Below the pieces are notes generated by a model. That model saw only the letters and a program-made list of their open reading frames with translations. It was not told the origin of the DNA and did not search any database. Position numbers and translations under genes: made by a program. From Sphingosinicella sp. YJ22 (lineage in GTDB: Bacteria; Pseudomonadota; Alphaproteobacteria; Sphingomonadales; Sphingomonadaceae): 64,000 nucleotides of DNA. The stretch is taken from contig NZ_JAANPA010000007.1 in NCBI RefSeq assembly GCF_011320075.1, positions 1 through 64,000 of the forward strand, in the 5' to 3' direction. Positions 40,105 to 62,402 of the stretch are shown here, piece after piece; within the stretch, counting starts at the first letter, position 1, and the number at the start of each line of letters is the position of its first letter.

Positions 40105-40213
40105 CTTTTTCGTTTCGGCCGGTGCGGGTCGGTGCGGCCCGCGGCGTCATCCCGTGCAGAAGGCCCGCGCCACCCCCGGCGCAGCGGCAATCTCACAAGG
40201 GAAGACATCGAGA

Positions 40214-46800: not shown

Positions 46801-49800
46801 GGAGCAGTCGGGCGCGATCCAGGGCCGCATGACCGGCTCTGGCACGATGAACCTGCTGATCGACAACAACGACATTTTCGACTGGGGCAACGGCAGCGCG
46901 ATCGACATCTCGTCGGCCGCCGGCGCGACCAACGGCAGCGCCAGCATCATGAATGCGACGATCACCAACAATCTGGTGACCGGGCCGACCAGCAATGCGC
47001 TCCGCGCTCTTTTGGTCGGGGCGGGCGCGTCGGCGGGCACCCACAACAACATCATCCGGGTCACACTCGACAACAACGCCTTCGACAACACTTATCCGGG
47101 CGCTCTGACCAACGACATGCGCTTCACGGTCTTCTCGAACGCGCAGATCCAGGCTCCGGGCTATGTCGGTGGAGGAGCCGACATAGCCGCTTTCCCGGCT
47201 CACATGGTGTCTCTCAACAGCCCGGGCACGGGCACCGCCAATGCCGCGGTCGGAGCGGGTGTCACCAACGGCTTCGCAAACACGCCGGGCGGCGCCAATC
47301 CGACGCTACCCAGCACGCCCAATCTGCCGCCGCCGCCGATGATGCTGGCGCCCGAGCCGCCGGCGCCGCCGATCCCCGACGCGGGCGACGGCAAGGACGA
47401 GCATACCGGCGACATCCCGCCGCCCGTCGACGACGGCGACACCGGCGGCACCGGCGACGGCGGCAAGGACGACCATGCCGGCGAGCTGCCGGACGACAAT
47501 GCCCACCCGGTCATCGTCGACGACGGCGTGCTCAGCCAGGCCGAGCTCGACTATCTCGTCGACGCGGCGATCCAGCGCTGGATCGATGCGGGCGCCAGCG
47601 CCGAGCAGGTCGCGGCGATGCGCGCGGCGACCTTCGCGGTCGCCGACATGACCGGGGTCCAGCTCGGCATGAGCGACGGCTCGATCATCCATATCGACAA
47701 TGACGGCGGCCGCGCCGGCTGGTTCCTCGACACGACGCCGGGCGCCGACGAGGAATATGGCGGCACCGGCACCCGTCTCGTCGCCACCGTCGGGGCGGCG
47801 TCGCAGGGCGTCGACCTGTTGACCGTGCTGATGCACGAGCTCGGCCACCAGGCCGGCCTCGCCGACCATTACGACATCGCCGCGCGCGACGACATCATGT
47901 ACGGCTATGCCTATGAGGGCGAGCGGCGGCTGCCGGCCGACGGCCAGGCGGCGGGCGCGGTGCCGGGATCGATCCCGCACCCGGTGTTCCAATTGGGGCC
48001 GATCGTGGTCGGCACGGTGCCGGGCGACAACGCCTTCACCGTCCAATATGATGCGACGGTCAACGCGCCGACCGAGGACCGGCTCGTCACCTATCACAGC
48101 AACGACGCCGACATCAGCTGGCGCGACGTGCCGGCCGGGGCGATCACCACGCAGAGCACCAATGCCAACTTGCTGGCGGTGGATTCGCTGAGCCTCGGCG
48201 ACCAGATCTTCCTCGACGACAACGGCAACGGCATCTTCGACGCGGGCGACACCGGCATCGCCAATGTCAGCCTGACCCTGTTCGCCGACACCAACAACAA
48301 CGGCGTCTATGACGACGGCGTCGACGAGGCGATCAGCTTCCTCGACGACGGCGACGGAGTCTACGAGCCGGGCATCGACACCCCGGCCGCGGCGGGGACT
48401 CCGGGCGCGATCACGCTCACCGTCACCACCGACGCGAGCGGCCTCTACGCGTTCGATTATCTCGCGCCGGGCGACTATATCGTGCGGGTCGACGCGTCGA
48501 ACTTCCTCTCGGGCGGAGCGCTCGAGGGCCTCACCGTCGTCGCCGCAGCGACCGATCCCGACGACAATGTCGACAACGACAATAATGGCCAGGCGTTCGC
48601 CGGCTATGCCGCGAGCCGCGCCATCCGCCTCGACCTCGACAGCGAGCCGACGGCGGGCCCGGGCAACGACACCAACAACACGCTCGACATCGGCTTCGTG
48701 GACCCGAACTTCGCTCCGGAGATCACACTCGCCGACAGCACGGTGAGCGGCACCGAGGACACCGACCTCGTCTTCAACACCGCCAACGGCAATTTGATCA
48801 GCGTCGCCGACGCCGACGGCGACACGCTGACGGTCGACCTGACGGTGACGAACGGCCGGCTGACCCTGGCCGACACCAGCGGCCTGAGCGGCTTCACCGG
48901 CAACGGCACCGCGACCGTGCAACTGATCGGAACGGCCGCGGCGATCAACGCCGCGCTCGACGGCCTCGTCTATCGTGGCGGCCTCAACTACCAGGGCGCC
49001 GACACGCTCAGCATCGAGGCGGACGACGGGGTCCTGAACGACACCGACAGCGTCGCCATTACACTGGCCGACGACGGCAGGATCAACGGCGACAGCGGCG
49101 ACAACGTTCTCACCGGCACTCCTCAGGCCGACACGTTCGTGGTCGGTCAGGGCGGCAACGACACGATCAGCGCGCTGGCCGGCAACGACATCCTCTATTT
49201 CGGCGGCGCCCTCACCGCCGACGACAACGTCACCGGCGGCCCGGATGTCGATACGATCGTCCTCCAGGGCGACTATAGCGGCGGCCTGGTCCTCGACGGC
49301 TCGATCACGGGCATCGAGCGGATCTCGATGCTCGCCGGCTCCAACACCGCGTTCGGCGATCCGGGGACCAACCTCTACGATTACGACCTCACCATCGACG
49401 ACGCCAATTTCGCCGCGGGCCTTCAGGTCCGGATCAACGCCGCGGCCTTGCTCGCCGGCGAGGATTTCACGTTCGACGGCTCCGCCGAAACCGACGCGAA
49501 GTTCGTCGTCTACGGGGGCAGGGGGTTGGACGACCTCACCGGCGGCGACGGCAACGACATCTTCTTCTTCGCCGAGGGCGGCCGCTTCGCCGCGGGCGAC
49601 GTGGTGAACGGCGGCGACGGCTATGACGGCATGTTCCTGCGCGGCAATTACACGATCGACTTCACCCAGGCCGGCTTTGCCGGGGCTCTTGCCAACCTCG
49701 AGAATCTGACTGTCTCCGGGGCGGCCGACGAGCGCTACGCCCGCGGCGGCGGCACCGAGTTCGATTACTCGATCACCTGGGACGGCGACCTGCTCGCCGC

Positions 49801-50311
49801 CGGAGCGACGATGACGATCAACGGCGCCACGCTGGGGTCCGAGGAAAGCCTGGCGTTCAACGGGTCGGACGAGACGAATGGACATTTCCGGCTGTTCGGC
49901 GGCGCGGGCAACGACGTGCTGACCGGCGGCGCCGGCAACGACCTCATCCTGGGCGGGCTCAGGGGCGACACCCTGACCGGCGGGGCCGGCAACGACATCT
50001 TCCGCTACGATTCGGTGGCCGACTCGAACTCGACGGAACGCGACGGCATTCAGGACTTCAACAGCGGCGACCTGATCGACCTGTCGAGGATCGACGCCAA
50101 CGCTCTGGTCGGAGGCAATCAGGCCTTCAATTTCGTCGGCAACGCCGCCTTCAGCAACACCGCGGGAGAGCTTCGCTTCGAGAATATCTCGCTGGGCGGA
50201 CCGATCTGGCTGATCCAGGGCGATACCAACGGCGACGGGGTCTCCGACTTCGAGGTGGTGCTGGTGATCAGCCCGCCCGATCCGATCACGGCCGGCGACT
50301 TCATCCTGTAA
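43817..50311 (+). CDS. Giant secreted RTX protein with beta-helix and metzincin-like domain
   Basis: This 2164-residue protein has no signal peptide. Residues 1-165 are Ig/cadherin-like (LLGNDIDPDGSNATM). About 170-1110 form a Gly/Asn/Thr-rich parallel beta-helix. A Pro-rich linker (about 1163-1190) and a Gly/Asp stretch follow. About 1235-1420 holds a zinc-protease motif HELGHQAGLAD at 1340-1350 with a possible Met-turn DDIMYGY at Met1361. An SdrD-like calcium domain (about 1458-1590), a cadherin-like domain (about 1630-1750), RTX nonapeptides (about 1758 on; GGAGNDVLTGG near 2026) and a serralysin-type C-terminus complete it. Type I secretion is expected, but no HlyB/HlyD genes are adjacent. 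It is probably an adhesin with a proteolytic or self-processing activity. Confidence 0.88.
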   Translation: MPANFSVRTRFQQFFDDQDGDNFGDAGDVIRTTLTFENTGDEALDVSIEDLLNGLTLVPGSVKIGPMAVDDAATISGNTPQTFTFAELLGNDIDPDGSNATMTITGVSGAVNGTVTIDTINETVTFTPNTGFTGAASFQYSVADAQGLTNVAGYEGTVSIDVDGLVWYVDANYAGANGAPDGSYLKPFTSLAPLNGAGGAGDVDGASDTIFVYARGANAYNSGIELETGQILRGEGVAADFIVNGINVSSVQTDTQIEYSTFGVQLAQNNTIMGIDLVGEAAVAVGIRDNGGSVGNLVISDVEIDGLGQMVDIDNGGDLDVTFQSLTSHASSGAGGVIDLDGVTAGTALTGTFTVTGFTTMDNASGTHNQVGISIGGNNTNLTASFAGGTSLNMGPNALAAGVDLGSNSGSTNFAGLAIATQTANGFVANNAGTLTVTGAGNSITTTTGQILSLSGTALGGSGATFTALGSSGVVTTNAIGLVNLTGGTFNGGNVTIAGTSLNQGIFISGGSSNMQFGTVTIDNTQAGGIDISSTSGTLTFTSVDIDGTGGHGIVIGSATGAVTVSGGSIGSANDPNLDAVRINGGSANVTINANLTNSTANVDIVDVSNRTGGTVAFGGTISSTGGAGGIDLASNAGTINFTGSQITLTTGGNTAVNITNNSAAINFTGGSLDITTTNAAGFSANATGGSVTVTGSSNTVSTGAGIAVNIQGTDIGAGGVTFNTVNTSGASSGIILANTGAGGFTVVGTAGVNGSGGSILNSTGHGIDLTGTTNVSLTGVTVTGSGGSGINGSNVNGLSLTNVTSSTNGNAVDEGGVFILNASGNVFVTNSTFNANADDNFAIRNDTGSLNFTATGSTFSNSYQGAFGDDNLILQANNTANITALISGNTFQNAEGDHFQFATNLGASGSSHVTFTNNTLTNNQSSAVVLGSGVTISPSGGADLRFLASGNTINDTISGYSFNVNAIDTSGSAQLDITIQNNTIGTSGVVGSGPEQSGAIQGRMTGSGTMNLLIDNNDIFDWGNGSAIDISSAAGATNGSASIMNATITNNLVTGPTSNALRALLVGAGASAGTHNNIIRVTLDNNAFDNTYPGALTNDMRFTVFSNAQIQAPGYVGGGADIAAFPAHMVSLNSPGTGTANAAVGAGVTNGFANTPGGANPTLPSTPNLPPPPMMLAPEPPAPPIPDAGDGKDEHTGDIPPPVDDGDTGGTGDGGKDDHAGELPDDNAHPVIVDDGVLSQAELDYLVDAAIQRWIDAGASAEQVAAMRAATFAVADMTGVQLGMSDGSIIHIDNDGGRAGWFLDTTPGADEEYGGTGTRLVATVGAASQGVDLLTVLMHELGHQAGLADHYDIAARDDIMYGYAYEGERRLPADGQAAGAVPGSIPHPVFQLGPIVVGTVPGDNAFTVQYDATVNAPTEDRLVTYHSNDADISWRDVPAGAITTQSTNANLLAVDSLSLGDQIFLDDNGNGIFDAGDTGIANVSLTLFADTNNNGVYDDGVDEAISFLDDGDGVYEPGIDTPAAAGTPGAITLTVTTDASGLYAFDYLAPGDYIVRVDASNFLSGGALEGLTVVAAATDPDDNVDNDNNGQAFAGYAASRAIRLDLDSEPTAGPGNDTNNTLDIGFVDPNFAPEITLADSTVSGTEDTDLVFNTANGNLISVADADGDTLTVDLTVTNGRLTLADTSGLSGFTGNGTATVQLIGTAAAINAALDGLVYRGGLNYQGADTLSIEADDGVLNDTDSVAITLADDGRINGDSGDNVLTGTPQADTFVVGQGGNDTISALAGNDILYFGGALTADDNVTGGPDVDTIVLQGDYSGGLVLDGSITGIERISMLAGSNTAFGDPGTNLYDYDLTIDDANFAAGLQVRINAAALLAGEDFTFDGSAETDAKFVVYGGRGLDDLTGGDGNDIFFFAEGGRFAAGDVVNGGDGYDGMFLRGNYTIDFTQAGFAGALANLENLTVSGAADERYARGGGTEFDYSITWDGDLLAAGATMTINGATLGSEESLAFNGSDETNGHFRLFGGAGNDVLTGGAGNDLILGGLRGDTLTGGAGNDIFRYDSVADSNSTERDGIQDFNSGDLIDLSRIDANALVGGNQAFNFVGNAAFSNTAGELRFENISLGGPIWLIQGDTNGDGVSDFEVVLVISPPDPITAGDFIL

Positions 50312-50428: not shown

Positions 50429-50590
50429 TCAGGACGGGTTGGTGATCGCGTCCACGTTGGGGCCCGACGCGTCTTCGGCGCTGCCGGCGACCATGCGCCG
50501 CACTTCGGGGCGCACCCAGGTCAGGCGCTCGGCGCTGTCCAAGGTTTCGGATTCAATCGCGGGAAGTTCATTCTCGTTGCGCGCGCCCAT
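50429..50590 (-). CDS. Candidate lasso peptide precursor (LasA)
   Basis: This 53-residue peptide is expressed from an ATG at 50590 with an excellent GGAGGAA ribosome site. Trp25-x-x-Pro28-x-Val30 resembles the YxxPxL leader motif bound by the B1 (RRE) protein. The C-terminal part reads AGSAEDASGPNVDAITNPS (35-53) and ends in Ser53, the residue expected to be phosphorylated by lasso kinases. No Thr stands at a clear penultimate leader position, so the cleavage site is unsure. Asp47 as ring acceptor would need a core starting at 39-41. It is the last gene of the minus-strand cluster, 60 bases after the nucleotidyltransferase. Confidence 0.72.
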   Translation of the reverse strand: MGARNENELPAIESETLDSAERLTWVRPEVRRMVAGSAEDASGPNVDAITNPS

Positions 50591-50641
50591 GACTTCCTCC
50601 GAACGGTACAGTGCCGGCACCTTGGCGACTCGTTAACCGAC

Positions 50642-50647
50642 TGTCAA
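50642..50647 (-). promoter_or_regulatory. Candidate -35 element for the precursor gene
   Basis: A perfect TTGACA on the minus strand lies 52 bases before the precursor start, in the 60-base gap after the nucleotidyltransferase gene. The best -10 at 17 bases (CAAGGT) is poor. A separate promoter would explain how a precursor at the end of an operon is made in excess. Confidence 0.3.
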
Positions 50648-50650
50648 ACG

Positions 50651-51736
50651 TCAGTTGCGGACCAGAAACGACCGGACTTGCCGGCGCAGCTCGCTGAGCT
50701 TGTAGCGCGGGCCGGGAAGCAGGCCGAACTGGGTGAGGTGGATCCAGGCCGTGCCGAGCCACAGCCGGTCGAGCTCGGTCGCGGCGGCGCGGCCGGACAT
50801 GCTGCGCATGGCGGCGGCGACGAGCCGGCGATTGGCGCGCTCCCCGCGCAGCTCCGCGACCAAGGCCGGCGGCAGCGGCGTCGCGAACAGGGTGTCGAGC
50901 AGCAACACGGCCAACGCCGCCGCACGGCCCCCGCCGAGCTCCTGCGAGCGGCGATAGAGCGCCGCGATCTCCTCCGGCGTGCAGCCCTCGAGCAAGGCGG
51001 CGAGATCGGCGATCCACTTGAGCCTGAACCAGGCGCTCGAGGCGCCGTGGACGGCGAGATAGGCGAACAATTCTTCCAGCCGCAGGGTGGGCAGGACGAT
51101 TCCCTCGGCGACCCGTACTTTCTGGCGCGGCGAGCCGATGCCGACTCCGGCGAGCAGCATCGGATGGTCGGCGAGGGCGGTGTGGAGCTCGACATGAATG
51201 CCGCGTCCCGGGTGGCGCCACACCGATTCCTTGGCGTGCTGGTGCCATGCCGCGATCCGTTCCGGCGTCGCGGGCCCTAGCGGAACGACCATCTCGTAGC
51301 CGTCCGCCTGGAGCAGCGACGCGGCGCCGGCGAGGTCGTCCGCGCCGACGAGGATGTCGATGTCCCAGCCCGCCTTGGGCACGATGCTGCCATAAGCGAG
51401 CGCGCTCAGGGTCAGTCCCTTGACGAACAGCAGGGGGATCGCCGCGGCGTCGAAGCGGGCGGCGAGGCGCGCGCATTCGGCGGCGGCGGCGAGATTGTCG
51501 CGGCCGATGCGGTCGGCCGCGGCCTGAAGCGCGCCCGCGACGTCCGCCGGGACCGTCACCCCGGCCTGGCGAAGCGCGCGCCACGCCAGGCCCTCGATGC
51601 GGTGGCGGCGGGCGATGCGCAGGAACAGCGGCCAGTCGATCGCCTGCTCGCGCAGCCAGCGATCCTGCTCCGGCGTGCGGCTCCAGCGGCAGCAGGCGAT
51701 TGCATAACGGAATTCCGGCAGCAGCGGCTCAGGCAT
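50651..51736 (-). CDS. Lasso-cluster nucleotidyltransferase family protein
   Basis: This 361-residue protein belongs to the uncharacterised nucleotidyltransferase family (NTP_transf_5 type). LLFVKGLTLSALAYG, then GWDIDILV with the two catalytic Asp residues (near 130-137), and HVELHTALADHP are visible. In kinase-containing lasso clusters such as those of paeninodin and pseudomycoidin, a gene of this family accompanies the kinase. The pseudomycoidin homologue is reported to modify the phosphorylated C-terminus with hexose. It overlaps the cyclase gene by eight bases. Confidence 0.85.
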   Translation of the reverse strand: MPEPLLPEFRYAIACCRWSRTPEQDRWLREQAIDWPLFLRIARRHRIEGLAWRALRQAGVTVPADVAGALQAAADRIGRDNLAAAAECARLAARFDAAAIPLLFVKGLTLSALAYGSIVPKAGWDIDILVGADDLAGAASLLQADGYEMVVPLGPATPERIAAWHQHAKESVWRHPGRGIHVELHTALADHPMLLAGVGIGSPRQKVRVAEGIVLPTLRLEELFAYLAVHGASSAWFRLKWIADLAALLEGCTPEEIAALYRRSQELGGGRAAALAVLLLDTLFATPLPPALVAELRGERANRRLVAAAMRSMSGRAAATELDRLWLGTAWIHLTQFGLLPGPRYKLSELRRQVRSFLVRN

Positions 51737-53654
51737 TCGAGCCGGCGGCCTTGCGGAGGAAATGGCCGCCGGACAGGCCGCGCAGCAAGGCGAGGCGGTA
51801 GCGGCTGGTGACCTTGTTGCTGTTCCAGCCGCCCTCAGGCCAGTCGTCGAGCAGCGCGCCGAGCTTGCCGGTCTCGAGGATCTCGGCCGCGCCGTCGACC
51901 GCGGCGATGCGCTCCGCCTCCAGCCGCGCCTCGTCGCGGGCGGCGGCGACGCCCTCGTGCCAGTCGACCGCCTGCAGGCCCTTGCGCCGTTCCTGAACCA
52001 CCGCGGCCGGCAGCCGGTCGGCGAGCACGCGCCGGGCGAGCGAGCGGGGCAGGCCGTCCTTGAGAAACTGCTCGGCCGGGATCGAAAGGCAGAGTTCGAG
52101 GAGGCGCCGATCGGCGCTCGGATCGCGAACATCGATGCCCCAGCCGCCGAGATAGCCCTTGTTGTAATTGCCCATGTCGACTCGGCCGATCACCCAGCGG
52201 CGGGTTCCGACGGGATCGCGGCGGGGGCGGTAGCTGAAGTCGAGCCCGGCCGCCGCAGCGTCGGCCTGAAGCGCCTGGGCGGTGGCGAGATTGACCGCGC
52301 TATAGTCGCCGAGGCGGAAATGTTTGCCCATCCGCCGGTTGATCGACTGCCACAGCCAGCCCGGCATGAACGGGCCGATCGTGTGGGCGAGGGCGCTGCG
52401 CCGGCGGATGCCGTTGCCGGGCAGGCGGGCGATCTCGCGCGCGAGGCGCAGCCAGCGGCCGCCGGCGAGCAGCTCCGGCAGCAGCTCGAGCCCGGCATAG
52501 CTGAAGCTCATATTGCCCATCTGGCCGGTCAGCATGACCGGGAGCCGGCGCGCCTTGGCGGCGTCCATGATGCCGTCCATCCACACGCCGTTGCACAGGT
52601 TGAGCACCGGCCGCTCGAACAGGAAGAAATTGCGGTCGAGCGTGGCCAAGGGCGAACGGCCGTTGGTCCGGACGAGGACGTGCTCGATATTCGGGTAGCG
52701 GGCGGCGACCGCTGCCGCGAGCGGCCCCTCGTCGCCGAAGCGGCCGTGTGGGATCGCCCCGTCATAGCCTTCGCGCGGCACCGCAGTGAAACCGGCGACT
52801 TTGCCCGACGGCCCGAGCAGGCGTGCCGCCGTGGCTGCAACCGCACTGCTGTCGAGCCCGCCGCTGAGAGTCGCGCCGACACCCTGTTCGGCGCCGCGCA
52901 GCCGGACCGCGACGGCGCGGTCGAGAGCCGCGCGGACGGCCTCCTCATACTCCTCGTCGCGGCCGAGGCGGAGCGTGGTGGTGCCCGGCTGCCAGTAATG
53001 GCGGGTCGAGAGGCCGTCGCGGGTGACGATGCAGATCGCCCCGGCCGGCACGCGCTCGACGCCGGCGAAGAAGGTGCGGGTGCCGCCTTCGGGCATCAGC
53101 GCGAGGAAGCGGGCGAGCATGTCGCGGTCCGGCGCGGGCGGCACCTCGGGGAGCGCGTGGAGGCCCTTGGGCATCGAGGCGAAGGCGACGAAGTCCGAGC
53201 CGCGGTGAAAATGGAGCGGCCGCTGGCCCATGAAGTCGCGGGCCAGCACCAGCCGTTGCCGCCCCGAATCCCACAGGGCGAAGGCGAAGTCGCCATCGAG
53301 CCGGTCCACCGCCTCCTCGTCCCAGCGGTCGAGCGCTGCCATCAGGATCGCGGAGTCGGCCAGCCCGCTCGGCTCGGCGATGCCGAGCGCGTCGGCGAGC
53401 TCGTCGCGATTGTCGAGACGGACGTCGGCGACAAGGACTCGGCGTCCCTCCGCGCTGACCATCGGCGCGCGGTCGAAGCGCTCCTCGGGAAGCTGGCGGA
53501 ACAGCCGACGGCCGAGCGCGATCTCGCGGTCGCCCCATGTCGCGGCGGACTTGGGGTCGGGCGCATAGACCTGCTGCGCCTGGAGCATTCGCTCGCAGGT
53601 GCGGCCGGCGTCAGGCCGGCCGGACAAGCTCCAATAGCCGGCGAGCGCGGTCAC
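51729..53654 (-). CDS. Lasso peptide cyclase, asparagine synthase-like (LasC)
   Basis: This 641-residue protein has an N-terminal glutamine-amidotransferase-like domain without the usual Cys2 nucleophile (it begins VTALAGYW) and a C-terminal ATP-pyrophosphatase domain with LSGGLDSSAVAA near residue 260. In lasso synthesis this enzyme adenylates the Asp/Glu side chain and joins it to the core N-terminus. The GTG start overlaps the B1 stop (GTGA at 53651-53654). Context of B1, B2, kinase and exporter separates it from a true asparagine synthetase. Confidence 0.9.
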   Translation of the reverse strand: MTALAGYWSLSGRPDAGRTCERMLQAQQVYAPDPKSAATWGDREIALGRRLFRQLPEERFDRAPMVSAEGRRVLVADVRLDNRDELADALGIAEPSGLADSAILMAALDRWDEEAVDRLDGDFAFALWDSGRQRLVLARDFMGQRPLHFHRGSDFVAFASMPKGLHALPEVPPAPDRDMLARFLALMPEGGTRTFFAGVERVPAGAICIVTRDGLSTRHYWQPGTTTLRLGRDEEYEEAVRAALDRAVAVRLRGAEQGVGATLSGGLDSSAVAATAARLLGPSGKVAGFTAVPREGYDGAIPHGRFGDEGPLAAAVAARYPNIEHVLVRTNGRSPLATLDRNFFLFERPVLNLCNGVWMDGIMDAAKARRLPVMLTGQMGNMSFSYAGLELLPELLAGGRWLRLAREIARLPGNGIRRRSALAHTIGPFMPGWLWQSINRRMGKHFRLGDYSAVNLATAQALQADAAAAGLDFSYRPRRDPVGTRRWVIGRVDMGNYNKGYLGGWGIDVRDPSADRRLLELCLSIPAEQFLKDGLPRSLARRVLADRLPAAVVQERRKGLQAVDWHEGVAAARDEARLEAERIAAVDGAAEILETGKLGALLDDWPEGGWNSNKVTSRYRLALLRGLSGGHFLRKAAGSNA

Positions 53655-53932
53655 GGGGGCGAGTCGTCGATGCTGACCAGCCCGTCCTGCTCGAGCGTGC
53701 GGAGAAGCCCGCGCAGGTCCCGCTCGCAAGTCTCGGCATCGACGTCATATTGGAGCAGGAGCGCATCGCGCAGCGCGCTGAGGCGGGTGGGCTGCGCGAT
53801 CATCTTCCACACCCGCGTGGCGGTGCCGTTGAACCCGTAGCAGGTGCCTTGCTCGACATGGAGGCCGAGCAGCTCGCCGTCGAGCTCCGCCTCGCTGAGG
53901 GCGGCACGGCGGGCCACGATCCAATCCGACAT
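53651..53932 (-). CDS. PqqD-like lasso peptide recognition protein (B1)
   Basis: This 93-residue protein has the PqqD/RRE fold. It has LDGELLGLHVEQGTCYGFNGTATRVWKMI early, split across residues 17-45, and DVDAETCERDLRGLLRTLEQDGLV late. It binds the precursor leader and presents it to the B2 protease. ATG 53932 with GGGGGAACGG upstream gives normal PqqD length; a TTG at 53995 overlapping the kinase stop would add 21 residues. Confidence 0.88.
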   Translation of the reverse strand: MSDWIVARRAALSEAELDGELLGLHVEQGTCYGFNGTATRVWKMIAQPTRLSALRDALLLQYDVDAETCERDLRGLLRTLEQDGLVSIDDSPP

Positions 53933-53991
53933 TCCGTTCCCCCACTGAACGCTCACATTCGGCGCACTGTGCACGCGCTCGGGCAGCGGTT

Positions 53992-54918
53992 TCAACCGGT
54001 TATGGCCGTCCGAGCCAAGGCGTTGGGTGACGCGCCGAGCAAGGCCTCGGCATGATCGCGAAGGCGTGCGGCGTCTTCGTCATAATGGTCGCGGCCCCAG
54101 CGGCGCACGGCGCGGAACAGCGGCACCTGGCGGGCGAGGGTGATACAGGACCGAAGGTGCTGCTCGCTGCGCCCGAGCAAGGGCACGAAGCCGCCGCGAT
54201 AGGTATTGGCGATCAGCGCCTCGGACGCGTCGATGCCGGTGAGGCGGGAGATTCCGTGCGTCTCGCCTTCGGCGGCCTCGGCGAGCAGGTAGCAGGCGCC
54301 GAGCGGCAAGGCCTGCCCTTGGGCGGCGGCGGGAACGTCGAACTTGTCCTGGCCGGCGAACGAGCGCGGATAGGCGCCGCCGTCGAGTCCGGCCGCCTCG
54401 AGCGCATCCTGCCACATGCGCAGTCGCGGTACGCCGGGGAGGGCGAGTGGCGGATCAGTCGGCGCGATCGCCGCGACGTCGTCGGCGAGGATGGCATGGC
54501 CGTGGCGCTGGAACCAATGGGCGAGCGTCGACTTGCCGGCGCCGGAGCGTCCCACGAAGGCCACGGCGCGGCCGGCGATCTCGACGCAATTGGCGTGGAG
54601 CGGCAGCAGGCCGCGCTGGTGGAGCAGCGCTCCGAAGGCCGAGCCGAGCAGATAGACGCGAAGCTCCCGCTCGCCGGCGTCGGGGGCGGGGTCGATGACG
54701 ATGCTGTCGCCGCCGCTGACCAGGAAGCGGCCGACCTTGGGAACCTGGAGCGCCAGCGCCCCTTCGTCGGTGATGCGGAGATGGCCGTCCTGCGCCGGCA
54801 CCGGGCCGTAGCGGACCTCGACTCGCGGCGCATCGTCTGCCGCGCCCGGCAGGCCGGGCAGCGGCAGCTCCGAATGGACGGCGAGCCCGAACAGGGCGCG
54901 CGGCGGCGCCCGGGTCAA
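53992..54918 (-). CDS. HPr kinase-like lasso peptide kinase
   Basis: This 308-residue protein resembles the C-terminal domain of HPr kinase. HANCVEIAGRAVAFVG leads into the P-loop GRSGAGKST and then GHAILADDVAAIAP, which carries the Walker-B-like Asp pair. Homologues in paeninodin-type clusters phosphorylate the C-terminal Ser of the precursor, and the precursor here ends in Ser. A TTG start at 54918 overlaps the B2 stop (TTGA), matching the coupling seen elsewhere in this cluster. A role in carbon regulation is unlikely given the context. Confidence 0.88.
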   Translation of the reverse strand: MTRAPPRALFGLAVHSELPLPGLPGAADDAPRVEVRYGPVPAQDGHLRITDEGALALQVPKVGRFLVSGGDSIVIDPAPDAGERELRVYLLGSAFGALLHQRGLLPLHANCVEIAGRAVAFVGRSGAGKSTLAHWFQRHGHAILADDVAAIAPTDPPLALPGVPRLRMWQDALEAAGLDGGAYPRSFAGQDKFDVPAAAQGQALPLGACYLLAEAAEGETHGISRLTGIDASEALIANTYRGGFVPLLGRSEQHLRSCITLARQVPLFRAVRRWGRDHYDEDAARLRDHAEALLGASPNALARTAITG

Positions 54919-55355
54919 TCCGCGGCCTCGTTCGAGAAGGTGGCGACGCAGGCGAATTGCGCGGCATTCTCGCCGCCGATCAGCACCTCGCCGCCAACGC
55001 TGAGCCAGACATGGGCGTTGAGCGCGCCATCGTTCGCCGCACCGATGCCGTAGTGAAGCGTCGACGGGATGCCGCGCCGGCGCAGCATCGCGCGCAGGCA
55101 CAGAGCGGATTCGAAGCATTTGGCGCGCCATGGCACCTTGGCGCGGGCGATCTCGACCATCCGTGCGAGGCGGCGGGGCTCGGCGCCGCCGCGCCGCCGG
55201 CGCACCCTGCGGCGCCCTTCGACGACACGCGCGAAGGACAGGAAGCGTACGGCGAGCGCGGCCGGAAGGAGATTGACGATCGCCTCGAGCACCAGCAGCC
55301 GGTTGGCGATGCCGCGGGCCCGGGAAGAGCGCAGGGGCGGTGCCGACGACGTCAT
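54915..55355 (-). CDS. Lasso peptide leader peptidase (B2, transglutaminase-like)
   Basis: This 146-residue protein is of the lasso B2 family. Cys80 in WRAKCFESALCLRAML and His115 in LNAHVWLSVGG are the expected catalytic pair of the cysteine protease that removes the leader. The N-terminal 45 residues form the usual helical extension. It is the first gene of the minus-strand lasso operon and is divergent from the exporter gene across 84 bases. Confidence 0.9.
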   Translation of the reverse strand: MTSSAPPLRSSRARGIANRLLVLEAIVNLLPAALAVRFLSFARVVEGRRRVRRRRGGAEPRRLARMVEIARAKVPWRAKCFESALCLRAMLRRRGIPSTLHYGIGAANDGALNAHVWLSVGGEVLIGGENAAQFACVATFSNEAAD

Positions 55356-55439
55356 GGCCGGAGCTTAGCCCTTCTGCGCCTGCGCGCAACGTGCGCGGCG
55401 GCTTGGCGGCGACGCAGCGCGTCCCTAGGGTTTGCCGCA

Positions 55440-57161
55440 ATGACCCGGCGGGCCCTTTTTGCGAGACTCTATGCGGCAATGAGCCCGGCGCGGCGGCGGC
55501 AGTTCATCCTGCTGCTCGTCGCCACGACAGTGTGCGCGGCGGCGGAGGCGTTCGCGATCGGCGCCGCCTTGCCTTTTCTCGCCCTCCTCGCCGATCCCGC
55601 CGGGGCGGCGCTGCCGGTGGAGGTGCGCGAGCGGCTGGCGTCCGTGGGGCCTCCGATCGCCAGCGCCGCATTGCTGCTCGCGGGGGCGACGCTGCTGCTT
55701 GTGGTGCTCCGCCTGACCCTGTTGTGGCGGCAGCAGAAGTTCGCCATGGGTTATGGTCGGGAGCTCGCCGGGCTGGTCTTCGGCCGGATGCTGCGCCAGC
55801 CCTATCTCGCTTATTTGAGCCGCAACAGCAGCGAGATGCTCGCCGGCATGGAGAAGGTCGAGCGGCTGGTCGGGACGCTCATCTACCCAGCGATCCAGGG
55901 CTTCGTCGCCGCGGTGCTCGCGCTGTTCGTGATGACCGCTCTGCTGCTCGTCGATGCGGTCGCGGCGAGCATCGCTGCGGTCGCCACCGCCGCGGCCTAT
56001 GCGGCGGTCAGCCTGCTCGTGCGCCGCCGGCTCGAAGCGAACAGCCGCGTAGTCTCGGCGTCGATCACCGCGCGCGCGCGCACCGTCCGGGAGGCGCTCG
56101 GAGGAATCCGCGACATCCTGCTCGACGGCTCGCAGGCGCTGCACCAGGCCAAATATGACGCGTTCGAAGTCCGCAACCGCCGCGCCCAGGCGGAGAATGT
56201 GTTCCTGGGGCAAGCGCCGCGCTACGCGGTCGAAGCCGTCGCCGTCATCGTCATGGCCGGCGTGGCGCTGCTGGTGAGCCGCGGCGCGGGCGGCATCGCC
56301 GAGGCGATTCCGGTGCTCGGCGCGCTTGCGCTCGGCGCCCAGCGGCTGCTTCCTCTGCTCCAGCAGGTGTGGGCCGGCTACAGCCAGGTCTCCGCCCAGC
56401 ACCAGTCGCTGCACGATGTCGCCATGCTGATGGAATTGCCGATCGAGCGGGAGGACGGGCCGCGGCCGGCGCCGCTGCCGCTCCGCCAGGAGATCCGCTT
56501 CGACCGCCTCAGCTTCGCCTATCGGCCGGACCGGCCGGTCGTCCGCGATCTCGACTGCACCATCGAAGCGGGCGAGTGGGTCGGCCTTGCCGGGCCGACC
56601 GGCAGCGGCAAGAGCACGTTCGTCGACCTGCTGATGGGCCTGATCGAGCCCGACGGCGGCCGAATCCTGATCGACGGCCAGCCGTTGACGCGCGAGCTAC
56701 GGCGGGCGTGGCAGGCGAATATCGCCCACGTCCCGCAATTCATCTATCTCGCCGACGACAGCATCGCCGCTAACGTGACGCTCGGCCAGGATGCGGACGC
56801 GGTCGACCGGGCGCGGCTCGACCAGGCGGTGCGCGCCGCCCAGCTCGACAGCTTCGTCGAGTCGCTTCCGGACGGGCTCGACAGCCGGGTCGGCGAGCGC
56901 GGGGTCCAGCTCTCGGGCGGCCAGCGCCAGCGCATCGGCCTCGCTCGCGCGCTCTACAAGCAGGCGGGCGTGCTGGTGCTCGACGAGGCGACCAATGCTC
57001 TCGACGAGGCCACCGAGACGGCCGTGCTGGCGGCGATCCGCGCGCTCTACGGCCAGGTCACCGTGATCATGGTCGCTCACCGGCCGTCCGTGCTGGCGCG
57101 GTGCGACCGGGTGATCAGTCTCGAGCCCGTCCAGGAACCGGCGGCGGCCCTGCGCGCCTAG
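55440..57161 (+). CDS. ABC transporter, lasso peptide exporter (LasD)
   Basis: This 573-residue half-transporter has a six-helix membrane domain (about 20-310) and an ABC domain with GPTGSGKST (Walker A), LSGGQRQRIGLARAL (signature) and VLVLDEATNALD (Walker B). It lacks a peptidase domain, as expected for lasso exporters, since B2 removes the leader. It faces away from the synthesis genes, and both transcripts start from the 84-base gap at 55356-55439. Export and self-immunity are the likely roles. Confidence 0.9.
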   Translation: MTRRALFARLYAAMSPARRRQFILLLVATTVCAAAEAFAIGAALPFLALLADPAGAALPVEVRERLASVGPPIASAALLLAGATLLLVVLRLTLLWRQQKFAMGYGRELAGLVFGRMLRQPYLAYLSRNSSEMLAGMEKVERLVGTLIYPAIQGFVAAVLALFVMTALLLVDAVAASIAAVATAAAYAAVSLLVRRRLEANSRVVSASITARARTVREALGGIRDILLDGSQALHQAKYDAFEVRNRRAQAENVFLGQAPRYAVEAVAVIVMAGVALLVSRGAGGIAEAIPVLGALALGAQRLLPLLQQVWAGYSQVSAQHQSLHDVAMLMELPIEREDGPRPAPLPLRQEIRFDRLSFAYRPDRPVVRDLDCTIEAGEWVGLAGPTGSGKSTFVDLLMGLIEPDGGRILIDGQPLTRELRRAWQANIAHVPQFIYLADDSIAANVTLGQDADAVDRARLDQAVRAAQLDSFVESLPDGLDSRVGERGVQLSGGQRQRIGLARALYKQAGVLVLDEATNALDEATETAVLAAIRALYGQVTVIMVAHRPSVLARCDRVISLEPVQEPAAALRA

Positions 57162-57277
57162 GCCCAGCATCCGCGAGTGGCAGTTCGATCCGCGCCCTGC
57201 TAGGGCAGCGGCGTGGTGCTGAGGTTTTGCGTTATCGTGAATTCGAATGGCTTGCGGAGTGCCGCGGGGGTGCCGCG

Positions 57278-58048
57278 GTGACGGTCGAATGTGCGTCCTT
57301 GTGGATCGGCGCGTCGCTCGGCCCGATCGAGCGCGCCTGCCTGCGCTCGGTGCTTCGCCAGGGGCACCGTCTCAGCCTCTATTGCTATGAGAAGCCGGCA
57401 GGAGTGCCGGCGGGCGTCACCCTGCGCGACGCGGGGCAGATCCTGCCGCGCAGCAGCATCATTCGCCATCACAGCGGCAGCGTCTCGCTATTCTCCAACC
57501 GCTTCCGCTACGAGCTGCAGCGCCGCGGCCTCGGCACCTGGCTCGATTGCGACGCCTATCTCGTCCGGCCGCTCGACGGCGCCAGCGACTATCTGATCGG
57601 CGAATATGAGCCGGGCCGAGTCTCGACGGGCGTGCTGCGCCTGCCGCAGGAATCGCCGCTCATCCAGCCCCTGCTGGAGATTTTCGAGGAAAAGAAGGTC
57701 ATGCCGTGGCTGCCGCGGCGCTCGCGCCTGGCAGCGCGATGGCGCCTGATGACCACCGGCCGAGTCGACCTGGCCAAGCTGCCCTGGGGGAGCGCCGGCC
57801 CGGTGGCGTTGACCTACCTGGCCCATTCCCACGGGCTGGCGAACGTCGCGGTGCCGCAGGACGTCCTCTACCCGGTGCCCTGGCAGCAAGCGGACTGGAT
57901 CCTTCAACCGGGCCGTGGGATCGAGGACGTCATCACCCCGCGGACGGTCTCGGTCCATTTCTGGAACGAGCGGATCAAGAGTTTCAAGCACCGGCCCGCG
58001 CCTCCGGGCAGCGTCCTCGCGCGCCTACACCAGGAGGGCCGCGCGTGA
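57278..58048 (+). CDS. Glycosyltransferase with DXD motif
   Basis: This 256-residue soluble protein has SLWIGASLGPIERACLRSVLRQGH at the start, split across residues 7-30, and a nucleotide-sugar-type DXD in WLDCDAYLVRPL near 88-99. This fits the sugar-binding-region glycosyltransferases (OCH1/capsular type). A GTG start at 57278 is used; no other start fits. It begins 116 bases after the exporter and overlaps the next gene by GTGA, so the three glycosyltransferases form one unit. Lasso peptide or surface glycan could be the acceptor. Confidence 0.75.
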   Translation: MTVECASLWIGASLGPIERACLRSVLRQGHRLSLYCYEKPAGVPAGVTLRDAGQILPRSSIIRHHSGSVSLFSNRFRYELQRRGLGTWLDCDAYLVRPLDGASDYLIGEYEPGRVSTGVLRLPQESPLIQPLLEIFEEKKVMPWLPRRSRLAARWRLMTTGRVDLAKLPWGSAGPVALTYLAHSHGLANVAVPQDVLYPVPWQQADWILQPGRGIEDVITPRTVSVHFWNERIKSFKHRPAPPGSVLARLHQEGRA

Positions 58049-59097
58049 CTCGGGCTCCGGCGGTCAGCGTGGTGCTGCCGGTCCATAACGGCCGCGCCTT
58101 CGTCGAGAGCAGCATCCGCTCCATCCTTGCCCAGGATTTCGCCGATTTCGAGCTGGTCGTCGGTGACGACGGCTCGGATGACGGCACGAGCGAGGTGCTG
58201 GCGAGGCTGGCCGCCGAGGACGACCGCATCCGCGTTCTGCGCCGGCCGACCAAGTCCGGGCTCGCGGGCAGCGCCAATTGGGTCGTTTCCGAGGCGCGCG
58301 CGCCGCTGGTCGCGATCGCCCATGCCGACGATATTTGCGACCCGTCGCGCCTGCGCCGCCAGGTCGCGCTGCTCGCCCGGCGGCCGGACGCGGTCCTGGT
58401 CGGCGCGCTCGCCGACGGCATCGACCCGCGCGGGCGATGCGTGCAGCCGGCCAATCTGTCGCGTCTGCTCAAGCCCTCGTCCTTCGCTCCGTTCGCCCAT
58501 TCCACCGTCATGTTCCGGGCCGAGGCCTTTTCGCGCGCCGGCGGCTACCGCTCCCAGGCCGATGCGTGGGAGGATCTCGACCTCTATTGGCGCATGGCGG
58601 AGGAGGGACGGATCCTGGTCATTCCCGAGGTGCTGGCGCGTTATCGCCACTCGGCGTCGAGCATTCGCGAGCGTCATGGCGACCGGATCGAGCAGGCGCT
58701 CGACGTGATGTACCGGTCGGCGGCGCTTCACGGCCAAGGGCGCGACTGGTCGCCGCTGCTCGGCAGGCCAAGTGCCGGGCGGATCCACCCGCGCATCTTC
58801 GTCGCCCGTTCCTGGGTGCGGCTGTGGAGCGGGCGGCGCAGTCATGTCTTCGGACGGATGCTGCGGCGCGCGGCGCTCCGGCCGAACCTCGTGTCGGCTC
58901 AGGCGCTCGCGTTCGTGACTTGGGCTACCGTGAGCCCGCGCTCACTGCGCCTGCTCCTCCAGCTGATCGGCAAGGCGCGCAATGCGCGGGTGCGCCACAG
59001 GCTGACCGGACTTGAGTTCGTCGAGTGGGAGATGGCGCCGCGCGATCCCGATGCCGTGACCGCATCCGCGCAATACCCCGCCGCGGCCGCGCGCTAG
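58045..59097 (+). CDS. Family 2 glycosyltransferase (1)
   Basis: This 350-residue protein has a GT-A fold: SVVLPVHNGRAFVESSIRSIL, split over residues 8-28, then VVGDDGSDDGT, AHADDICDP (metal-binding DXD-like) and AWEDLDLYWRM. The C-terminal third (RIHPRIF, LWSGRR, PRSLRLLL) is shared with the next gene and is not part of the usual catalytic domain. The GTG start overlaps the previous stop (GTGA). Acceptor unknown. Confidence 0.88.
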   Translation: MTRAPAVSVVLPVHNGRAFVESSIRSILAQDFADFELVVGDDGSDDGTSEVLARLAAEDDRIRVLRRPTKSGLAGSANWVVSEARAPLVAIAHADDICDPSRLRRQVALLARRPDAVLVGALADGIDPRGRCVQPANLSRLLKPSSFAPFAHSTVMFRAEAFSRAGGYRSQADAWEDLDLYWRMAEEGRILVIPEVLARYRHSASSIRERHGDRIEQALDVMYRSAALHGQGRDWSPLLGRPSAGRIHPRIFVARSWVRLWSGRRSHVFGRMLRRAALRPNLVSAQALAFVTWATVSPRSLRLLLQLIGKARNARVRHRLTGLEFVEWEMAPRDPDAVTASAQYPAAAAR

Positions 59098-59099
59098 CC

Positions 59100-60143
59100 T
59101 TGGCCGGCCCGCCGCCGCTCAGCGTCGTCATGCCCGCGCGCAATGTCGAGCAATGGGCGCAGCAGGCGGTGCGCAGCATCCTTCGCCAGACCTTCTCCGA
59201 TTTCGAGCTGATCATCCTCGACGACGCGTCCGAAGACGGGACACGCGCGCTGCTGCGGCGCCTGGCGGCTGAAGATGCGCGGATTCGGCTGTTCGAGAAG
59301 GACGCGCGGCTCGGGCCGGTCGGCAGCTCCAATTTCGTCGTCGAGCAGGCGCGGGCGCCGATCGTCGCCCGCATGGACGCCGACGACGTCGCCGCGCCCG
59401 AACGCCTCGCCAGGCAAATGGCCGCGCTTGCCGAACGCCCCGATGCGGTGTTGGTCGGGGTGCTGGCCGAGACGATCGACGATAGCGGGCGGCGCGTGCG
59501 GCCAGCCAGCTATGCGCCGCTGCTGCACCCCACCGAGATGGCGCCCTTCCCGCACACTTCGATCATGTTTGGCAAGGCTGCGTTCGAACGGATCGGCGGC
59601 TACCGCGCCGGCGCGGCGAAATGGGAGGATGTCGACCTGTTCCTGCGCATGGCGGAGGCGGGCGCGGTGCTGGTCGTGCCGGAGCCGCTCATGGCGGTCC
59701 GGCAGACCGGCAAGAGCACGCGCTTCGCGGACGGGCAGCGCGATCTCCACGAGGCGATCGGCAAGATGTACGACTGCCTCGCCGCCTACCGGCGCGGTGA
59801 GGATTATGCGCCGCTGCTCACGCGGGACAGGCGGGGCGGCAGGCTGGATCCGCGCGTCTTCCTGTCGGGCGGATCGTCCTCACTGTGGGCCGGGCGACGC
59901 CCCGGCGTGCTTGGGCCGATGCTGAGGACCGGCCGTCTGCGCGTCCGCCCGCGCGACGCCGCCTTGCTCGCCTGGGCCACGGCCGCCGAGATCAGCCCGC
60001 GCGCCCTGCGCTTAGCGATGCGCAACCTGCTCGCGCTGCGCAATCGCCGCGCGCGACGCCGGCTTGGCGCCGCCGCGATCATCGAGTGGCGGCCCCAGCC
60101 GGCCGCTCGGCGAACAGCCAGTCATAAGGAAGTGGCGGACTGA
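59100..60143 (+). CDS. Family 2 glycosyltransferase (2), paralogue of the preceding
   Basis: This 347-residue GT-A enzyme has LSVVMPARNVEQWAQQAVRSIL (residues 6-27, given here in two parts: LSVVMPARN and VRSIL), ILDDASEDGT, ARMDADDVAAPERL and KWEDVDLFLRM. The tail (RLDPRVF, LWAGRR, PRALRLAM) repeats that of its neighbour, so the pair arose by duplication. The start is uncertain: TTG at 59100, three bases after the previous stop, keeps the first strand, while the next ATG (59130) would destroy it. Its last 65 bases overlap the convergent methyltransferase gene. Confidence 0.85.
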   Translation: MAGPPPLSVVMPARNVEQWAQQAVRSILRQTFSDFELIILDDASEDGTRALLRRLAAEDARIRLFEKDARLGPVGSSNFVVEQARAPIVARMDADDVAAPERLARQMAALAERPDAVLVGVLAETIDDSGRRVRPASYAPLLHPTEMAPFPHTSIMFGKAAFERIGGYRAGAAKWEDVDLFLRMAEAGAVLVVPEPLMAVRQTGKSTRFADGQRDLHEAIGKMYDCLAAYRRGEDYAPLLTRDRRGGRLDPRVFLSGGSSSLWAGRRPGVLGPMLRTGRLRVRPRDAALLAWATAAEISPRALRLAMRNLLALRNRRARRRLGAAAIIEWRPQPAARRTASHKEVAD

Positions 60144-61373: not shown

Positions 61374-62402
61374 TCAATCGCAGCGGAACAGGGAGCCGTC
61401 GCCGGTGCGGACCTCGTCGCGGCCGACGCGGGCGAGGGTCGAGCGGGTCACTTCCTCGTCCATCTCCGCGACCAACGTGCGGCCGTCCTCGATCGACCAG
61501 GTGCCCCGTTCGCCGGAGGCGGTGACGAGATCGCCGTTGGAGTCGAAGCGGATCGGCTCGCCGCAATCCTCATCGTAGCTCCACGCGCCCGCGAACCAGG
61601 TCTCGGTCACCGTGGCGGGCGACCGCATTGACACCGCGAAATAGATCAGCGCGATCAGCAGCACCGCGCCGACGCCGCCAAGGGCGAGGAACAGGGGCAG
61701 CTTGCTCGGCTTGCCGGGCTCGGCGGGCATTGGCTCGTGCGGCTGAGCGCCGGTGTCTGCAGCCCCACTGCCGGGCGCCTCGCTCCGGGGAGGGCGGGCG
61801 GGGACGGAGCGGTCGAGCGAGACCGGCGGCAGCGGCGGGGGTGGGGCCGGCGGCGGAGGCGTGCTCTTGGCCTTGGTGATGTCGACCGCCGGCTTGGCTT
61901 CCGGCTCGTCGATCGACACCGTGCCCGTCTTGGGCGTGCCGTTCTGCGCCTGGACCTGAAGGTCGCGCGCCTTCAATGCGATTCGGTCGATCGCCTCGTC
62001 GCGTTGCTCGAGCCAGTCGATCCATTGCGACGCGGCGAGGTGATAGCTGAGTTCGCCCGGGTCGATCCGCTCCAGCCGCAGCGGGATGATCGCCTTGCCG
62101 AGCTGGTCGGCGAGGATCAACTCGCGCTCGACGTGGCGGCTCTTGGCCGAATTGGAGCAGAACAGCAGCAGCACCGCGCTCGATTCGCCGATCGCCTGGG
62201 GAATGGCGCGGGCGAAGGACGCACCGGGCTCGACGTCGCGCGGCGCGATCCAGCAGCGCACGCCCTTGATGTTCAGCGCCCGCTCGACATGCTCGGCCAC
62301 TTCGAGCTTGGACGAGTGGTGGCTGACGAAGAGCATCGGCGACTTGTCGCGGCTCACCATCCCCTCCCCGAAGGAGCTGCTTCCACCGCCTGTCGTCGCC
62401 AT
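61374..62402 (-). CDS. Membrane-anchored TIR domain protein
   Basis: This 342-residue protein has an N-terminal TIR domain (about 20-130: LFVSHHSSKLEVAEHVERAL, split after LFVSHHSS, then CWIAPRDVEPG and SRHVERELILAD). Glu94 stands where TIR NADases have their catalytic Glu. A Pro-rich linker (about 180-230), one membrane helix (235-258) and a small extracytoplasmic domain with two Cys (C-terminal 80 residues) follow. The start codon overlaps the stop of the upstream cyclase gene by one base (TAATG), so the two are made together. TIR as nucleotide-hydrolysing effector is inferred. Confidence 0.88.
   Translation of the reverse strand: MATTGGGSSSFGEGMVSRDKSPMLFVSHHSSKLEVAEHVERALNIKGVRCWIAPRDVEPGASFARAIPQAIGESSAVLLLFCSNSAKSRHVERELILADQLGKAIIPLRLERIDPGELSYHLAASQWIDWLEQRDEAIDRIALKARDLQVQAQNGTPKTGTVSIDEPEAKPAVDITKAKSTPPPPAPPPPLPPVSLDRSVPARPPRSEAPGSGAADTGAQPHEPMPAEPGKPSKLPLFLALGGVGAVLLIALIYFAVSMRSPATVTETWFAGAWSYDEDCGEPIRFDSNGDLVTASGERGTWSIEDGRTLVAEMDEEVTRSTLARVGRDEVRTGDGSLFRCD

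Follow-up and report, generated by a model that had tools for sequence, protein, structure and literature searches.

The closest described relatives of the locus analysed here are the clusters for paeninodin from Paenibacillus dendritiformis and the Syan and Thco clusters, in which an HPr-like kinase carrying the residues His-Lys-Asp-Asp stands beside lasso genes and the precursor ends in Ser (PMC9266682). As reported there, these four residues are essential in lasso kinases, and the paeninodin kinase modifies the linear precursor at its C-terminal Ser. The pseudomycoidin (psm) cluster adds a nucleotidyltransferase homologue, PsmN, which decorates the phosphorylated Ser with one or two hexoses, the exact reaction being left open in the parts of PMC9266682 that describe it. 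We analysed a stretch of 64,000 nucleotides from Sphingosinicella sp. YJ22 (contig NZ_JAANPA010000007.1, positions 1 to 64,000; hereafter the window), whose minus strand carries a gene set of this kind between positions 55355 and 50429. We consider it likely that the set encodes a kinase-type lasso pathway yielding a phosphorylated lasso peptide. The DNA itself shows which genes are present, that their catalytic residues are kept and that the precursor pattern is conserved; the chemistry and its order we infer from the characterised relatives. The original prediction of a complete kinase-type lasso cluster with a nucleotidyltransferase is supported by the family of the B2 protease, the cyclase tree, the kinase residues, and the ring-forming acid and final Ser in 15 of 15 precursors; it had the class right and missed the non-canonical leader end, the first core residue and an RTX partner gene.

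A check of the open reading frames (ORFs) bore out the seven genes at the coordinates and in the order first proposed. In the direction of transcription, the minus-strand genes are those for the transglutaminase-like leader peptidase B2 (54915..55355), the HPr-like kinase K (53992..54918, TTG start), the PqqD-like leader-binding protein B1 (53651..53932), the lasso-type cyclase C with an asparagine-synthase fold (51729..53654, GTG start), the nucleotidyltransferase N (50651..51736) and the precursor A (50429..50590, 53 residues); the seventh, for an ABC transporter without a peptidase domain (55440..57161, plus strand), is divergent. Overlaps of 4 to 8 bases had been described throughout, which holds for three of the five junctions (C/N, 8 nt; B1/C, 4 nt; B2/K, 4 nt) and fails for K/B1, where the gap is 59 nt with B1 starting at ATG 53932, and for N/A, where it is 60 nt. 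An alternative TTG at 53995 would give a 4-nt overlap of K and B1, and ATG 53932 is preferred because of the alignment of B1 with its relatives. For the precursor, ATG 50590 behind GGAGGA is favoured, the upstream GTG 50620 being less likely.

At the sequence level, the lasso class is best supported by B2, which scores 66.8 bits against the lasso-family model NF033537 (cut-off 33), has its Cys and His aligned with those of relatives and is the sole PF13471 match at E≤0.001 in the source genome, searched as 82 contigs (2.97 Mb). B1 matches PqqD (PF05402) with 60.8 bits, over the cut-off of 23.4, and reaches 46.7 bits with lasso_PqqD_Bac, below that model's cut-off of 80. The cyclase features an SGGLDSS loop, and its best model is that of the lasso lactam cyclases (NF033535), the AsnB model TIGR01536 following with 158.2 bits, itself under cut-off. 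A quick maximum-likelihood search (LG+G4) over 40 proteins, with group labels assigned by hand, gave a tree in which nine AsnB-like proteins, including Escherichia coli AsnB and three paralogues from the source genome, form one clade with an SH-aLRT support of 100. The original prediction had named grouping with asparagine synthetases as the outcome that would speak against it; the window cyclase lies outside this clade, among lasso-type cyclases, with its top identity (53%) to the cyclase of locus L052, and the lasso reading stands (loci are numbered L and genomes G throughout). The tree, which omits L063 (AsnB-like, 24%), L041 (partial) and the later-found L107 cyclase of genome G205, contains some long branches and two long-branch joins that raised warnings, neither of which touches the window clade. 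Furthermore, a Met-Cys start is present in eight of the nine AsnB-like rows, the ninth (L071, source genome) having been read with upstream sequence so that its start cannot be judged, and is absent from the window cyclase and the subfamily cyclases. These sequence comparisons support a window cyclase distinct from true asparagine synthetases. A cyclase of Tistrella pTM3 (L065, 9956-11962) is nested in the window's clade and has no kinase, B1, B2 or precursor match within 10 kb on either side.

In the kinase, the motifs LPLH, GAGKST and ADD could be aligned, and the His, Lys and Asp-Asp kept in the window recur in each of the 11 subfamily kinases compared; what had been described as an HPr-kinase-like protein retains the lasso-kinase residues, next to precursors that end in Ser in every case. 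The nucleotidyltransferase belongs to PF14907 (146.9 bits, cut-off 31.2) and its active site KG...DID...VELH is intact, with the third acid in VELH. Structure prediction from nine sequences produced a nucleotidyltransferase fold (pLDDT 91) whose nearest solved fold is MenT1 (E 2e-4, 16% identity, TM 0.66 by target length), followed by weaker matches to LnuA, FKRP and ANT(2'') (E 0.04-0.12). FKRP is a ribitol-phosphate transferase. A likeness to it, seen in the predicted model, would suit a sugar-phosphate transfer like that reported for PsmN. A tentative assignment as a pseudomycoidin-type nucleotidyltransferase is based on membership of PF14907 and the DxD...E pattern, the likeness to PsmN being one of description. 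An intact nucleotidyltransferase was not seen in L034, L055, L056, L057 and L059, as far as these stretches reach. In L034, a relative is present as two pieces in different frames (12303-12913) and looks broken.

The precursor, at first a candidate by position alone, is now backed by 14 relatives. Its 53 residues comprise a leader ending in ...WVRPEVRRMVAGSAE and a predicted core DASGPNVDAITNPS (alternatively ASGPNVDAITNPS) with a C-terminal Ser. No curated NCBIfam or Pfam family matches it significantly (best E 0.071), and a scan of genome contigs with the 53-residue sequence alone returned nothing. Scanning with an alignment of three cyclases yielded 13 loci, namely 12 true relatives and the AsnB-like L063, and ten of them also contain a short ORF that combines a leader-type motif with a terminal Ser, in some cases 8-9 kb from the cyclase; L056 and L057 show no precursor, their contigs ending inside a giant gene and shortly after B2, respectively. 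Together with the window and with L034, which was found through its kinase, this gave 12 distinct precursors, which we aligned on the leader Trp. All 12 share W1, P4, A11, G12, A14, E15 and a terminal Ser, and an acid stands at position 23 in eight and at position 24 in the other four. Conservation of W1, P4 and V/L6 in 12 of 12 is partly by construction, as the scan pattern was [YWF]xxPx[ILVM]; AGxAE, the acid and the Ser were not required, the final Ser being merely flagged, and the ORFs were picked by eye among those listed. A later scan for AGxAE returned the identical set. Three precursors found subsequently, in L105 and L107 (scan requiring the final Ser) and in L149 (family profile), agree with the pattern and bring the number to 15, with L033 and L052, and likewise L107 and L127, counted once as the same locus. 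All 15 conform to WxxPx[VL]....AGxAE with Asp or Glu at 23 or 24 from the Trp and a C-terminal Ser, while residue 16, the first of the predicted core, is D, I, L, A, N, V or T, and Asp in the window. By their sequences, the AGxAE precursors form a family with an Ala-Glu leader end and a variable first core residue.

A profile built from 14 precursors recovers the family at E<1e-7 in five of 298 genomes of the source's taxonomic family, four of which had contributed rows; at E≤0.01 it matches 14 of the 298, nine of them (best E 4e-4 to 0.008) and a weak second match in G205 being left uncounted. The precursor travels with the cyclase: 19 genomes gave a cyclase match at E≤1e-60, and all five precursor genomes belong to these. 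Searching the source genome with a short DNA pattern was uninformative (267 forward and 226 reverse matches, as in the control). Two further ORFs resemble the precursors: one in L119 (4334-4522, WIAPEVEIMEAREAKNGPDTVFDGSQYS), with A-R-x-A-K where the AGxAE family has A-G-x-A-E and possibly an intermediate form, and a second one in G205 (L151, 7903-8109, WQTPVVRRLDANLAENGSLVGAEAVLLLS), away from the cluster and matching the profile with E 0.001.

To place the cleavage site, we turned to a precursor annotated as 'paeninodin family' on a Priestia plasmid (L068, WKKPELEVLDVNKTM-LGGSGEYTD), which has Thr14-Met15, Leu16-Gly17 and Asp24 in the same numbering. The AGxAE precursors present Ala14-Glu15 in place of Thr14-Met15 and the acid at 23 or 24 in place of Asp24, with Gly17 in 8 of 12; those of L060 and L061 read AGGG...PD from position 16. 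Because the AGxAE register matches the Thr-Met leader end of L068, a B2 cut after Glu15 is the conservative and most likely reading. It would give rings of 8 or 9, Ala(-2) and Glu(-1), and in the window a ring Asp1-Asp8 within the core DASGPNVDAITNPS. The alternative, a cut one residue later, would give rings of 7 or 8, Glu(-2) and mostly Gly as first residue, with Ala1-Asp7 in the window. In either register the ring acid falls at core position 7-9 in 12 of 12 precursors. The predicted monoisotopic core-minus-water masses of the two cores are 1338.605 and 1223.578, each increased by 79.966 with phosphate. A penultimate leader residue other than Thr is not new in itself: Ile(-2) was shown in Bradymonas, Ile/Val was predicted in Sphingomonadales and Ile/Val/Ala more widely, in what PMC10368454 reports of them, and the AGxAE family possibly overlaps with these Sphingomonadales precursors. 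A non-canonical first core residue is rare among lasso peptides, the Asn1 of metanodin being presented as the first beside Gly, Cys, Ser and Ala in the relevant part of PMC12670498.

In the pathway we favour, B1 would bind the WxxPxV leader of the 53-residue precursor and the kinase would phosphorylate the C-terminal Ser while the precursor is still linear. B2 would then cut at the AGxAE site, most likely after the Glu, and the cyclase would activate the core Asp and close it onto the new N-terminus, forming a ring, Asp1-Asp8 (8 residues) or Ala1-Asp7 (7 residues), through which the tail would be threaded. The enzyme with the nucleotidyltransferase fold would subsequently add a sugar or a nucleotide to the phosphate, and the neighbouring glycosyltransferases may extend this modification.

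On the other side of the precursor, the gene for a giant, calcium-binding RTX protein of secreted type with 2164 residues (43817..50311, plus strand) is convergent with A at a distance of 117 nt. It features Ig/cadherin-like, SdrD_B-like and RTX repeats (Big_9, Cadherin_5, SdrD_B and HemolysinCabind over, Beta_helix and Peptidase_M10 under the Pfam cut-off) and a metzincin-like HELGHQAGLADH. Its last 410 residues (49079..50311) constitute a lasso-linked RTX module, of which the first 235 are the specific part; in other genomes, relatives of this C-terminal part end just upstream of a precursor. Of 16 precursor genes, 9 have an RTX gene beside them, which involves 7 of the 14 genomes, and in seven cases the precursor lies directly downstream on the same strand, with gaps of 60 nt (twice in L034), 87 nt (L105), 27 nt (L064), 22 nt (L059), 35 nt (L062) and 26 nt (L052, or -4 nt with an earlier start). 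In G205 (L107/L127), RTX gene and precursor are separated by the cyclase gene. In their front parts the giants are diverse, with Ig/cadherin/PPC domains, an M10 serralysin with dozens of RTX repeats, or Ig/cadherin domains together with weak matches to beta-helix and matrixin. Structure prediction of the module gave a beta-roll resembling RTX domains (pLDDT 77) with no match in the Protein Data Bank (PDB) under E 0.001, and the model therefore gives no hint of a binding function. RTX repeats occur in seven ORFs of the source genome, so that chance adjacency would be about 0.5% in one genome, with some 2,900 genes assumed. No link between a lasso peptide and an RTX protein was found in the literature among the matches listed, some of which were judged by title and the start of the abstract.

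Several other ideas about this neighbourhood were discarded. A lasso peptide acting as inhibitor of an RTX metzincin was rejected as a general explanation: the giants of L056, L059, L062, L064, L107 and the window contain HExxH, but the precursor-linked giants of L034 (both), L052 and L105 do not. For a read-through fusion of giant and precursor, the two are in one frame in L034 (twice) and L064 and in different frames in L052, L059 and L062. The secreted-type beta-helix proteins convergent with the precursor in L053 (12354-13433) and L058 (11361-13517), 54-57% identical to each other for one pair, were not counted as RTX pairs, the best E to the window giant being 0.11. Upstream of the giant, at 37720-43381, are a TonB-dependent receptor and a 1075-residue gene product that looks autotransporter-like by eye (no Pfam match at 1e-5); both were dropped as cluster members, as tblastn returned no match at 1e-5 in 23 loci.

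We then followed module and precursor through the 298 genomes. The 410-residue piece matches 20 genomes at E≤1e-20; in 16 of these the match begins around residue 213, in the common RTX tail, and in four (the source genome, G204, G205 and G268) it covers most of the module. All four are among the five precursor genomes, an association for which Fisher's exact test gives p 1.6e-8, or 6.9e-5 when the source genome is excluded together with G205, where the module had led to the precursor; as phylogeny is ignored, both values overstate the case. Within the genus of G204 (seven genomes), one genome has module and precursor and six have neither. The precursor genome lacking the module is G238, and in an order-wide sample the 235-residue piece was found at E≤1e-8 in 3 of 326 genomes, among them G470, which lies outside the 298 and shows no precursor. 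A plasmid search with the module produced 56 records, none covering 80% of it.

The divergent ABC gene heads an operon that continues with genes for a putative Gb3_synth-like glycosyltransferase, GTx (57278..58048; PF04572 19.9 bits, under the cut-off of 22.3), and two family-2 glycosyltransferases (58045..59097 and 59094..60143; PF00535 97.9 and 103.5 bits), all on the plus strand from 55440 to 60143; an FkbM-type gene (60735-60079) follows on the strand opposite to the glycosyltransferases. The transporter matches MsbA and PglK models best, under cut-off, and no peptidase domain is among its Pfam matches. As had been proposed, it is thus divergent and peptidase-less, but a role in lasso export is uncertain: its best full-length relative in the 15 loci searched (39% over 558 residues) lies in a glycosyltransferase cassette of L053, which comprises an ABC gene, a GTx relative (58% identical) and two family-2 glycosyltransferases no more than about 10 kb from the lasso genes, and a second L053 ABC gene, located beside the lasso set, matches only over residues 293-562. 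In L058, too, a family-2 glycosyltransferase is near the lasso genes. From these likenesses, the transporter may export a glycan or a glycosylated product; that it exports the lasso peptide is a guess. Near the glycosyltransferases, the window encodes a TIR-domain protein (61374-62402; PF13676, 73.8 bits) with, by eye, a Pro-rich linker and a hydrophobic stretch.

Related sets of a cyclase, kinase, PqqD and B2 are found on Azospirillum plasmids (L066, L067), accompanied by oxygenases, cupins and phage-tail-collar proteins and, in L066, by an M10-C-domain protein. On a Halopiger plasmid (L086), three consecutive genes encode a haloarchaeal PqqD, a B2 of lasso type and a cyclase that bears the annotation asnB.

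Several observations weigh against the phosphorylated lasso peptide. The kinase scores 29.9 bits with PF07475, just under the cut-off of 33.3, and the cyclase remains below the NCBIfam lasso cut-off (294.9 of 525 bits), although the lasso model is its best match. The usual penultimate leader Thr is absent from 15 of 15 precursors, with Ala14-Glu15 in its place, and to our knowledge Asp has not been reported as core residue 1. B1, B2 and C are all present in only 10 of 13 subfamily loci, no B2 being seen in L055 and no kinase or B1 in L060, which shows B2-like pieces in different frames only; the stretch of L061 is just 6.9 kb. Finally, the Bradymonas kinase is reported in PMC10368454 to phosphorylate core Ser3 instead. 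The proposed action of the kinase on the C-terminal Ser and of the nucleotidyltransferase on the phosphorylated tail can claim the precedents of paeninodin and pseudomycoidin, against which stand the Bradymonas Ser3 and the open reaction of PsmN; a C-terminal phosphorylation is favoured over a Ser3-type one because the last Ser is invariant in AGxAE precursors. The missing Thr(-2) and the variable residue 16, together with the B2 not seen in L055 and some cores of 13-14 residues, whose tail beyond the ring would be just 4-6 residues long in the first register, would suit an unthreaded (branched-cyclic) or merely phosphorylated linear peptide, if the AGxAE subfamily had left the lasso fold when its leader end became non-canonical and its first residue was no longer confined to Gly, Ala, Ser or Cys. 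We regard this as unlikely, since all 15 precursors retain an acid permitting a ring of 7-9, the three maturation genes do stand together in most loci, and Ile(-2) was experimentally accepted in Bradymonas, with Ile/Val/Ala(-2) precursors predicted as reported in PMC10368454. Much less probable still is an HprK-related surface-polysaccharide or exosortase-type system whose kinase, PqqD and nucleotidyltransferase merely resemble a lasso cluster. The best kinase models are indeed HprK_rel_A and HprK_rel_B of NCBIfam, far under cut-off, kinase relatives occur in 81 of 298 genomes (E≤1e-10) with no B2 or cyclase seen in 5 of 20 loci around them, and glycosyltransferases and an FkbM-type gene adjoin; yet B2 exceeds the lasso cut-off and every precursor genome among the 298 is a cyclase genome.

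With the phosphorylated lasso peptide as our preferred product, its relation to the RTX gene has to be weighed separately. That it works together with the module-carrying protein is plausible from the gene neighbourhood, and we tentatively hypothesise that the phospho-lasso peptide, possibly glycosylated, is a dedicated partner of RTX proteins with the specific C-terminal beta-roll module, serving as ligand, inhibitor, cargo or surface-retention piece. A somewhat stronger claim, with about even chances, belongs to shared ancestry or island hitch-hiking as the source of the adjacency, with no functional link: the same-strand pairs of L059, L062 and L064 come from related Sphingomonas, the three pairs of G204 look like local duplicates, in G204 and G205 additional module genes lie apart from any precursor, G470 carries the module but shows no precursor, and for 7 of 14 genomes (L053, L054, L055, L058, L060, L061 and L149, the stretch of L061 being short) no RTX ORF is seen in the stretch covered. 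Against such hitch-hiking, module and precursor stay together while the fronts of the giants differ (cadherin/Ig, M10 serralysin, beta-helix), the gaps of -4 to 87 nt are operon-like, and among the 19 cyclase genomes (scored on four candidates each) four of the five with the AGxAE precursor possess the long module, as against none of the 14 without.

A natural role is known for few lasso peptides, and for no phosphorylated one that we know of; a recurrent partner gene offers a concrete handle on this question. If the partnership holds, pairs of an RTX giant followed by a precursor, served by one shared maturation set, would represent a two-component extracellular system and a lasso subclass with an Ala-Glu leader end. 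The invariant Ala-Glu together with a first residue that may be Asp, Asn, Ala, Ile, Leu, Val or Thr would widen the substrate rules of lasso maturation and may explain why precursor finders might miss the AGxAE family.

Compared with paeninodin, Syan and Thco, the window thus shares the kinase residues, the C-terminal Ser and, with the paeninodin-family precursor of L068, the leader spacing, but its leader ends in Ala-Glu rather than Thr-x, its first core residue is Asp (variable in the AGxAE family) and an RTX gene adjoins. Pseudomycoidin likewise adds a nucleotidyltransferase homologue; it comes from Bacillus, and the passages of PMC9266682 that treat it mention neither a glycosyltransferase operon nor an RTX gene. 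The bsf cluster of Bradymonas sediminis comprises A, B1, B2, C, D, K and N genes, has a penultimate residue that is likewise not Thr and is bordered by an FG-GAP repeat protein presumed by the authors not to be involved; it differs in Ile(-2), in its Gly1-Asp8 ring and in a kinase acting on Ser3, as far as PMC10368454 describes it. Metanodin also starts its ring with a non-canonical residue, but with Asn1 and a Thr two residues upstream, and the word kinase is absent from the main text of PMC12670498. The cluster therefore belongs to the known kinase/nucleotidyltransferase kind of lasso clusters, and its new features are a leader end with AGxAE, a first core residue out of the ordinary and, most notably, an RTX partner gene that recurs.

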